Assembly (NCBI RefSeq): GCF_030811455.1
Contig: NZ_JAUSQU010000001.1
Location: 1,550,001-1,614,000, forward strand
Source: Streptosporangium lutulentum
Lineage (GTDB): Bacteria > Actinomycetota > Actinomycetes > Streptosporangiales > Streptosporangiaceae
DNA length: 64,000 bases
Reading direction: 5' to 3'
Shown here: one piece after another, positions 12,521 through 42,815 of the stretch
Layout of the letters: every line of letters begins with the position of its first letter
Numbering within the stretch: the first letter of the stretch is position 1
Program-made: the position numbers and the translations under genes
Notes under the pieces: model-generated
Told to the model about the DNA's origin: nothing
What the model saw: the letters and a program-made list of their open reading frames with translations, nothing else
The model's database searches: none

Positions 12521-12569
12521 CCGGTCCGGAAGCGGCTCCTGTCGCCGTTCCGGGATCCGAGCATCGACG

Positions 12570-12646
12570 TGGGGCGGCCGACGGGACTCGAACCCGCTTG
12601 CACCGGGATCACAACCCGGTCCCTCGTCCACTTCGGGATCGGCCGC
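12570..12646 (-). tRNA. tRNA-His (anticodon GTG), divergent
   Basis: The minus strand folds into a cloverleaf: acceptor GCGGCCG with CGGCCGC, anticodon stem CCGGG/CCCGG around TTGTGAT (anticodon GTG, His), T-arm GCGGG-TTCGAGT-CCCGT. Discriminator C73 fits His, and CCA is encoded (12570-12572). The body is 74 nt. Position 8 is A instead of the near-universal U, and the D-arm has only 3 bp with an 11-base loop, so this is not a canonical housekeeping tRNA. It is the last of three tRNAs, 2 bases after tRNA-Arg. Confidence 0.85.
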
Positions 12647-12648
12647 AG

Positions 12649-12721
12649 CACCTCTGGCTGGAATCGAACCAGCGACCTCCTGCTCCGCAAGCAGGCGCGC
12701 TCTCCACTGCGCCACAGAGGT
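12649..12721 (-). tRNA. tRNA-Arg (anticodon GCG)
   Basis: A 73-nt cloverleaf: acceptor ACCTCTG/CAGAGGT, D-arm GCGC/GCGC, anticodon stem CCTGC/GCAGG around TTGCGGA (anticodon GCG, reading CGC and CGU), T-arm GCTGG-TTCGATT-CCAGC, discriminator G. No CCA is encoded. Bacteria normally read these codons with an ACG (inosine) tRNA, so a GCG arginine tRNA is unusual. Middle gene of the array. Confidence 0.85.
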
Positions 12722-12725
12722 TGGA

Positions 12726-12798
12726 TAGCGGGTGCGGGAATCGAACCCGCCCACAACGGCTTATGAAACCGCCGAGCACACCAGCGCCCTCACCCGCC
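12726..12798 (-). tRNA. tRNA-Met (anticodon CAT)
   Basis: A 73-nt cloverleaf: acceptor GGCGGGT/ACCCGCT with one G-T pair, D-arm GGGC/GCTC, anticodon stem GCGGT/GCCGT around TTCATAA (anticodon CAT), T-arm GCGGG-TTCGATT-CCCGC, discriminator A. The ends resemble elongator Met tRNA; a lysidine-type Ile tRNA is the alternative. Position 8 is G, not U, and CCA is not encoded. First gene of the array, immediately after an intrinsic terminator. Confidence 0.82.
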
Positions 12799-12800
12799 CC

Positions 12801-12840
12801 AAAGGAAAAGCCGCCTCAGACCCTGCGGTCCAAGACGGCT
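12801..12840 (-). terminator. Leader terminator (attenuator) before tRNA array
   Basis: On the minus strand, arms at 12840-12827 and 12822-12809 pair over 14 positions with three wobble pairs, around the loop GCAG. TTTTCCTTT follows at once, ending 2 bases before tRNA-Met. This is an intrinsic terminator with a U-tract in a genome that usually lacks them. It sits between the leader ORF and the tRNAs and must be read through for tRNA expression. Confidence 0.82.
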
Positions 12841-12872
12841 CACGTCGTGACGGCGGACGTCACACGCGAGCC
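12837..12872 (-). promoter_or_regulatory. Competing anti-terminator hairpin
   Basis: The 5' strand (12872-12858) covers the last leader codons (Glu, Ala, Arg, Val, stop). It pairs with 12852-12837 over 15 bp around a TCCGC loop, with one G-T pair and one bulged G. Its 3' end shares bases 12837-12840 (AGCC) with the 5' arm of the terminator, so the two stems exclude each other. A ribosome at the stop codon would block this hairpin and let the terminator form; early stalling would free it. Confidence 0.7.
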
Positions 12873-12940
12873 TCCCGGGGCATGCGCATACGGCGATGAA
12901 CACGCATGGTGCGATGGTTCTGACCGTGATGACGACGCAT
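12860..12940 (-). CDS. Arg/His/Met-rich leader peptide (26 aa)
   Basis: A 26-codon ORF starts at ATG 12940, preceded by AAGGAGGGG. It encodes 9 Arg, 4 His and 4 Met (17 of 26), beginning MRRHHGQNHR. Arg codons are 4 CGT, 4 CGC and 1 CGG; His 3 CAT and 1 CAC. These are the codons read by the three tRNAs encoded just downstream. The control codons occupy positions 2-20 and the 3' end overlaps the anti-terminator hairpin. It resembles an amino-acid-operon leader peptide in layout, but regulates tRNA genes. No homologue is known to me. Confidence 0.75.
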   Translation of the reverse strand: MRRHHGQNHRTMRVHRRMRMPREARV

Positions 12941-12950
12941 GACCCCTCCT

Positions 12951-13249
12951 TGTGAGGCTCGACTGGCTTGATCAAAGGATGCCGGACTTCGGGAACCGGC
13001 CGCAACGCGTTTACTCCGCGTACCGCGACGGACATCGGCGGGAAGCCGTCCGGGATCGGCGGCGTGATCGAGGATCTCTCCCTCACCCGGCGTACCGCGG
13101 TCTCCTGCCCGCCCGGCGTACCGCGCCGGCGGGTGCCCGGGTCGAGCCGGGGGCGGCACCCCATCGGCTGAGCGATCGCGGAATCGGACGAGCCGGCCCC
13201 CGCCGCGCACATCACGGCGGGGGCCGGGCACATCACGGCGGGCGCTCGG
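12951..13249. other. Upstream region of the HRM leader
   Basis: This stretch separates the leader Shine-Dalgarno from the luciferase-like gene stop. It contains the TTGATCAA palindrome at 12968-12975. A TTGCGG element on the minus strand near 13009 could be a -35, but no confident -10 follows. The promoter of the leader/tRNA unit should lie here. No protein gene is seen. Confidence 0.45.
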
Positions 13250-42414: not shown

Positions 42415-42419
42415 TTCTC

Positions 42420-42552
42420 CATTCCTTGAACGCCTACCGGGTTAGCTGTCGGGCTCGGGCCAGGAGTCGCCCTACCATCCGCGTCGGGATGGATTCGCCC
42501 CCTGCGGCGATCAGCCGCGTAGTTGGGTCCTCGGCTCCGGCGGCATGGAATG
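42420..42552 (-). promoter_or_regulatory. ydaO-type c-di-AMP riboswitch
   Basis: The minus strand carries the conserved blocks of the class: GCCGCCGGAGCCGAGGACCC, GGGGGCGAATC, TAGGGCGA and GACAGCTAACCCGGTAGGCG, in order. CATTCC (42552-42547) pairs with GGAATG (42425-42420) as the closing stem. That stem includes part of the Shine-Dalgarno sequence GGAATGGAG. High c-di-AMP should stabilise the fold and turn expression off. Known targets in actinomycetes are secreted cell-wall hydrolases. Confidence 0.88.
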
Positions 42553-42815
42553 TCACCGGACTCGGCGCCGGACGGCGGCCTTCCGCTTGAAGGTCGTGTC
42601 ACCATCCGTTTACTGAAACTAGACACTAACCTCAAATATGGACAAAGCAAACTAAAACCCCCAAAATTGCAAAGATCTACCTTTCTGGCCCTGATTCCGA
42701 CCGTCGGCCACCGCGCCCGCGGGGCCGCTTACCCCCTGGCCTGGGTGGTAGCGTTCATGATCAGTTGCCTCCGAATGTCGTTGACACGAACCGATCATGT
42801 TAAACAGGACCTGCG
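42553..42815. other. Promoter region of SUMF1-fold gene and riboswitch
   Basis: 263 bases. The middle part (42600-42680) is AT-rich, with ACTGAAACTAGACACTAACC and runs of A, and should hold divergent promoters for the riboswitch transcript and the SUMF1-fold gene. No gene is seen. Confidence 0.45.

Follow-up and report, generated by a model that had tools for sequence, protein, structure and literature searches.

The window, by which we mean the whole stretch of 64,000 nucleotides of Streptosporangium lutulentum DNA that was analysed, carries on its minus strand a unit in which, from 5′ to 3′, a promoter-like block, a first pairing arm, a Shine-Dalgarno (SD) sequence, a leader ORF, the predicted arms of an antiterminator and a terminator precede three tRNA genes, tRNA(CAU), tRNA-Arg(GCG) and tRNA-His(GTG). 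The features are as follows (coordinates of the window; strand; description; basis):

13012..12976 (minus): promoter-like block, AAACGCGTTGCG ... GGCATCCT, with a putative promoter function
12960..12954 (minus): pairing arm 1, GAGCCTC, 5′ of the SD sequence; its partner GAGGCTC lies within the ORF at 12874..12868 (minimum-energy fold)
12951..12943 (minus): strong SD sequence, AAGGAGGGG (sequence)
12940..12860 (minus): leader ORF of 26 codons, MRRHHGQNHRTMRVHRRMRMPREARV, followed by a stop codon (sequence and homologous loci)
12895..12881 (minus): control-codon core Arg-Arg-Met-Arg-Met, directly 5′ of pairing arm 2 (similar cores in several genera)
12872..12863 (minus): predicted antiterminator 5′ arm (arm 2), GGCTCGCGTG, overlapping the end of the ORF (covariation with 12846..12837 in 18 loci)
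12846..12837 (minus): predicted antiterminator 3′ arm (arm 3), GACGTGAGCC, whose GAGCC doubles as the base of the terminator (covariation, 18 loci)
12841..12806 (minus): intrinsic terminator (arms 3:4) with a TTTT tract (sequence; both-sided changes in 18 loci)
12798..12726 (minus): tRNA with anticodon CAU (Met) and a divergent core (Rfam tRNA, 41.5 bits; covariance-model family)
12721..12648 (minus): tRNA-Arg(GCG) (ARAGORN and Rfam)
12646..12570 (minus): tRNA-His(GTG) (ARAGORN and Rfam)

The terminator hairpin of the window reads GAGCCGTCTTGGACC-GCAG-GGTCTGAGGCGGCT (12841..12809) and is followed by TTTT, and the genes directly 3′ of it are tRNAs, not biosynthesis enzymes or aminoacyl-tRNA synthetases. 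The leader RNA has a predicted folding energy of −83.6 kcal/mol, with a z-score of −4.3 against 200 shuffles. An earlier reading, made from the sequence alone, had described the same order of elements, namely an ORF with a strong SD sequence, competing hairpins, a U-tract terminator and three tRNAs, which we confirm; its span, 12570-12950, contains these elements but leaves out the promoter-like block and arm 1. Its codon counts are likewise correct: the 26 codons of the leader include 9 for Arg, 4 for His and, with the start, 4 for Met, and 8 of the 9 Arg codons are CGU or CGC. Without the start codon, Arg, His and Met make up a fraction of 0.64 of the leader, against a mean of 0.17 and a maximum of 0.54 in 141 control ORFs (SD-bearing ATG ORFs of 13-40 codons from the flanks of homologous loci), none of which is as rich in these three residues. 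Cores resembling RRMRM or RHRMH are found in the leaders of several genera.

Of 22 homologous loci chosen by hand, 21 have an upstream GTTG box, among them all four that lack a leader ORF; in two of the 21 (L133 and L122) the distance from box to start is just 32 nt, and these two probably represent a different box. At the four loci where no leader ORF was found (L092, L072, L087 and L089), the GTTG promoter-like block is followed by the odd CAU tRNA, and these loci are perhaps constitutive versions. Elsewhere in the window, Rfam reports a c-di-AMP riboswitch (ydaO/yuaA leader; 42415-42577, minus strand, 69.7 bits).

A divergent CAU tRNA and its companions

The CAU tRNA was overlooked by ARAGORN and reaches 41.5 bits with the Rfam tRNA model (cut-off 29). 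Its core, as read from the sequence, is unusual in that U8 is missing and position 14 is G, with C15/G48. Its cloverleaf is well conserved among nine loci (eight of them distinct), where all cells of the 21 pairs are standard and three pairs show changes on both sides. With permissive thresholds, the tRNA-Sec model (cut-off 47) lists both the CAU tRNA (12726-12799, 44.0 bits) and the tRNA-His (12573-12647, 32.6 bits), matches below the cut-off that fit the unusual cores of these two tRNAs; three homologues reach the tRNA-Sec cut-off of 47.

At E 1e-5, a covariance model built on this odd CAU tRNA (R1) finds matches in 163 of the 341 genomes from the family Streptosporangiaceae; of these matches, those scoring near 50 bits are taken to be ordinary tRNAs. 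We use as the family of homologous loci the 112 R1 matches of at least 66.8 bits in the 341 genomes, all of which were fetched; their presence is patchy. Four weaker matches (G005, G093, G002 and G312) were inspected and left out of the later counts. At one of these (L170, in G002) the odd tRNA breaks off near the T arm, and it is seemingly a decayed copy. Among 394 genomes drawn from the class, R1 at E 1e-9 matches 11, every one of the same family. The fixed anticodon position in the 112 loci reads CAT in 109, GAT in one and TCA in two, the last two being taken as length offsets because their letters show a CAT loop. One exact pattern for the CAU tRNA occurs in 45 stretches of an 84,980-species collection, which belong to Actinomadura, Nonomuraea, Streptosporangium, Planotetraspora, Planobispora, Planomonospora and Acrocarpospora, and has no match in IMG/VR. 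We also considered that the CAU tRNA could be an Ile2 (AUA-reading) tRNA and rejected this identity, because the leaders contain 152 internal AUG codons and no AUA, a codon that is absent from all 1869 leader codons.

The tRNAs of the operon duplicate housekeeping tRNAs yet differ greatly from them in sequence. In the 40 of 45 tRNA stretches of the host genome that were covered, the housekeeping set comprises one tRNA-His(GTG), tRNA-Arg with anticodons ACG, CCG, CCT and TCT once each and, as we read the CAU genes, one elongator Met, one Ile2 and three initiators. Identity between the operon tRNAs and their housekeeping equivalents is 64-72%, roughly the same as with unrelated tRNAs (56-73%). 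The operon tRNA-His is identical at 62 of 77 positions to a tRNA-His of a Gordonia phage and at 54 of 77 to that of the host itself. In the Gordonia phage Sixama, the tRNA-His (L274 2525-2601) follows one base behind another tRNA, an arrangement as in the window, and an 816-kb plasmid of Miltoncostaea oceani carries an unlisted tRNA-Arg(GCG) (L275 801-874), identical to that of the window at 61 of 74 positions, followed by a tRNA-Arg(CCG). Eleven phage records match only the tRNA-His and the end of the tRNA-Arg, at 73-77%, and viral, phage and plasmid collections contained no match to the unit as a whole. Among the proteins nearby, none of the clusters is widespread (the widest of the first 14 clusters has 8 ORFs in 5 genera). 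The patchy presence of the loci and their narrow neighbour clusters suggest that the locus is a stand-alone accessory unit.

Leader codons and tRNA arrays across loci

A leader ORF could be assigned in 103 of the 112 homologous loci and was not found in the other nine. Array and leader vary together: most Actinomadura loci have the array Ser(GCT)-Met(CAU)-Arg-His and a leader like MRRHRMHSSSLSGLGSRRRT, a Streptosporangium locus with the CAU tRNA alone has the leader MNQRMSMRDEARV, and a locus for which only Ser and Met tRNAs were called (G078) has MSSHSRMSDDLPGPG. Some of the leaders were picked by hand or by a rule requiring R-M-like motifs, which biases the Met counts of this set. A second set consisted of the leaders that the SD score by itself selects (90 of 112 loci). 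In this set, at least two Ser codons are present in all 51 leaders of loci with a tRNA-Ser, against 4 of 39 without one, and at least one His codon in all 56 leaders of loci with a tRNA-His, against 15 of 34 without.

The curated set was reduced to 100 loci for permutation analysis by removing three near contig ends (G248, G288 and G079), and labels were permuted within genera because of shared ancestry. Where a tRNA-Ser(GCT) is present, 53 of 56 curated leaders contain at least two AGY-Ser codons; where it is absent, 1 of 44 does. His codons follow the presence of tRNA-His with p = 0.00002, the floor of the test; the mean numbers of His codons with and without this tRNA are 4.0 (n = 2) and 0.25 (n = 4) in Streptosporangium, 3.33 (n = 3) and 0.47 (n = 17) in Nonomuraea, 2.42 (n = 48) and 1.0 (n = 2) in Actinomadura, and 6.0 (n = 2) and 5.0 (n = 2) in Planotetraspora, where the two loci without tRNA-His are an exception in being His-rich all the same. 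At the level of single loci, G003, which has no tRNA-His, has one His in its leader, and G000 and G011 have four. Arg codons follow tRNA-Arg with p = 0.004, mainly owing to Streptosporangium (means of 10.0 with and 3.0 without, n = 3 each). In Nonomuraea the means do not differ (5.3 with and 5.5 without), and the leaders of loci with a Met tRNA only are Arg-rich nonetheless. CGC, CGU and CGA codons give p = 0.0008, and in Nonomuraea CGG averages 2.25 in loci with tRNA-Arg(CCG) (n = 4) against 0.17 in those with another tRNA-Arg (n = 6; p = 0.005). For Ser the within-genus test gives p = 0.08, with one locus lacking the tRNA; Ser is poorly testable within genera since just one Actinomadura locus with a leader is without tRNA-Ser. 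Cross-controls were not significant (Arg by tRNA-His, p = 0.53; Ser by tRNA-His, p = 0.9997; His by tRNA-Arg, p = 0.09).

The choice among synonymous codons is also skewed. AGY accounts for 161 of 204 Ser codons (79%) in 55 leaders of arrays with a tRNA-Ser, against 32% in long ORFs, and among Arg codons CGG falls to 12% in leaders from 37% in long ORFs, while CGA rises to 32% from 3%. In 49 of 50 Actinomadura leaders a CGA stands immediately 5′ of an AUG. A GCG anticodon does not read CGA, which is decoded instead by the housekeeping ICG tRNA; what the leader senses may therefore be the latter and not the spare.

A natural swap is provided by G347, the sole locus with a GAU (Ile) anticodon in a tRNA of the CAU family. 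In its leader, MRGRHRRISGRISVGRSVPGPGSRPRT, internal AUG codons are missing and two AUC codons follow Arg; the three congeners that carry loci of the family have R-M-H at the corresponding place. Only one other of the 103 leaders lacks an internal AUG, that of G292, a small exception as its tRNA has the CAU anticodon.

The sequence-only reading had proposed that the composition of the peptide matches the set of tRNAs and that this match should extend to other loci. It does so for His, for Ser (AGY), for the split of Arg codons between CGG and CGY and for one Met-to-Ile swap; Arg-rich leaders, on the other hand, also occur where there is no tRNA-Arg. Loci without the ORF or with mismatched codons, which that reading had named as evidence against itself, exist in part (Arg in Nonomuraea, His in two Planotetraspora loci, Met in G292 and the 9 of 112 loci without a leader).

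Predicted RNA switch and its possible role

Two helices were examined in 18 Streptosporangium-type loci, the window included. The antiterminator, of 10 pairs, is 93% paired, and both-sided changes affect 14 cells and 4 pairs; for the terminator, of 11 pairs, the figures are 98%, 7 cells and 5 pairs. For both helices the percentage paired, the number of changed cells and the covariation score were reached by none of 500 shuffles, and for the antiterminator the count of both-sided pairs was reached by 34 and that of pair types by 240 of 500, in shuffles that take no account of relatedness. Sliding the partners against each other reduces pairing to 22-54% in the same loci. Antiterminator and terminator have alignment columns 41-44 in common and are therefore mutually exclusive.

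Three helices were examined in Actinomadura (40 loci). The first, between an arm in front of the SD sequence and the ORF, is 90% paired, and 3 of its 9 pairs have changed on both sides; the second is a hairpin across the stop codon, in which all changes are one-sided; the third, the terminator, is 97% paired, with both-sided changes at 2 of 8 pairs. For the three helices together the covariation score was reached by 1 and the count of changed pairs by 78 of 500 shuffles. A candidate antiterminator, CGGUC:GACCG, was rejected in these 40 loci, as it showed no compensatory changes and a covariation score below that of the shuffles. Covariation backs both antiterminator and terminator in the Streptosporangium-type loci, and the antiterminator tested in Actinomadura lacks such support. 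By our own criterion, and after removal of the unrelated leader candidate of G095, a U-tract hairpin is present in 71 of 101 leaders, a few of these being weak hairpins of five pairs, and was not found in 30, among them 14 of 18 from Nonomuraea.

Simulated folding with a ribosome footprint placed the switch, in many loci, close to where the control codons end, and in 59 of 70 loci a ribosome positioned on the first internal Met pre-empted the terminator arm more often than one on the stop codon did. A control with shuffled spacers gave a median of 0.59 versus 0.63, with the real spacer above the shuffled one in 33 of 70 loci; since real spacers do no better than shuffled ones, the simulation is not independent support.

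As far as sequence comparison can establish them, the parts of an attenuator are in place: a leader ORF with its SD sequence, a terminator, a mutually exclusive antiterminator in the Streptosporangium type, a match between codons and anticodons across loci, and redundancy of the tRNAs with housekeeping genes, each of which was found in one copy. We consider it highly probable that the leader is a ribosome-mediated attenuator, releasing second-copy tRNAs when the matching codons stall the ribosome. A ribosome passing quickly over the Arg, His, Met (and Ser) codons would reach the stop codon and cover arm 2, allowing the terminator to form; with a ribosome stalled on the control codons, arm 2 would remain exposed and could pair with arm 3, which would deprive the terminator of its base and let RNA polymerase continue into the tRNAs. 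The new tRNAs would restore decoding and close the loop, making the circuit self-correcting. The attenuation logic with tRNAs as its product, already advanced from the window alone, is thereby supported, as a prediction, by the tracking of codons and by the covariation of terminator and antiterminator.

As to the trigger, loss or damage of housekeeping tRNAs is a likelier signal than starvation, because extra tRNA helps only when the tRNA, and not the amino acid, is short. The locus could then serve for inducible tRNA replacement: anticodon nucleases would destroy housekeeping tRNA-Met, -Arg, -His or -Ser, the multi-tRNA leader would stall ribosomes and divergent, attack-resistant spares would be released. 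We advance this tentatively, as a reading with a substantial chance of being correct, though somewhat below even.

An alternative that we regard as rather unlikely, while taking it seriously, is that the same attenuator senses starvation for Met, Arg, His and Ser and that the tRNAs serve another purpose, such as adjusting codon decoding or supplying uncharged tRNA for the stringent response. A leader is unable to distinguish a missing from an uncharged tRNA, and the classical actinobacterial attenuators, in the parts of PMC1262725 considered here, control biosynthesis or aminoacyl-tRNA synthetase genes. However, a shortage of amino acids would not be relieved by extra tRNA, the joint polling of up to four amino acids would be odd for starvation control, and the absence of any widely recurrent protein cluster beside the loci also speaks against it. 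It is improbable that the leader is instead a small basic protein with a function of its own, the terminator merely setting the tRNA level and the codon match being a by-product of a conserved Arg/His-rich peptide. Arg does represent 31% of leader codons overall and is high in Nonomuraea whatever the array, but the match is at the level of codons (AGY not UCN, CGY and CGA not CGG) and shifts with the array, the AUG-to-AUC change accompanies a change of anticodon, and the leaders range from 12 to 30 residues in length. Control by a T-box (a tRNA-binding riboswitch) or another known RNA is disfavoured and very improbable: RNA-based regulation related to tRNA is common for synthetase genes in general, but Rfam at E values up to 1 gives no T-box match in 12560-13100, only tRNA-type matches and one plastid 5′UTR on the opposite strand, far below its cut-off. 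Finally, a chance Arg-rich frame, of a kind frequent in GC-rich DNA, is refuted by the 141 control ORFs and by a leader recurring at nearly all homologous loci with codons that follow the array.

The tRNA supply of bacteria is usually seen as controlled by growth rate and not by a sensor of whether a particular tRNA functions. At these loci a single short ORF appears to poll particular isoacceptors, as many as four at once, and to switch on their spare copies. If the reading as inducible tRNA replacement is true, no earlier attenuator would have had as its products the tRNAs that it senses, and the cell would possess a response acting on the tRNA pool, for defence or for the repair of damage; if tRNA damage is the trigger, the circuit would reveal which tRNAs face attack in these soil bacteria. 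The natural swaps of codons and anticodons make the attenuation idea directly testable, and a self-correcting tRNA switch could find use in engineering.

Attenuation of the his/trp type relies on a short leader ORF rich in control codons, an arm 2 at the end of this ORF, an antiterminator and a terminator sharing an arm, and a U-tract. The locus resembles these attenuators in its leader ORF, the position of arm 2, the common arm and the U-tract, and differs from them in that its products are tRNAs and that one leader has codons for up to four of them. In actinobacteria, classical attenuators lie upstream of trpS and leuS of Streptomyces and a trp attenuator has also been described (PMC1262725, PMC8079986), with further attenuators proposed for alaS and thrS (PMC8079986), according to the parts of these articles considered. 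The synthetase attenuators described there are likewise actinobacterial leader peptides acting on genes for aminoacyl-tRNA supply, but each acts on a synthetase protein and a single amino acid, whereas the present locus acts on the tRNA genes themselves. No attenuator of tRNA genes appeared in the open-access literature searched or in the same parts of PMC1262725 and PMC8079986, in line with the sequence-only reading, which was aware of no such system. A proposed role of phage-encoded tRNAs is resistance to the anticodon nucleases of the host (PMC10264068); they are, as here, divergent second copies, the operon tRNA-His being nearer to that of the Gordonia phage than to that of the host; unlike phage arrays, the locus is chromosomal, holds one to four tRNAs and places them behind a leader. 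T-boxes, too, sense the state of tRNAs, but at this locus the sensing would run via translation.
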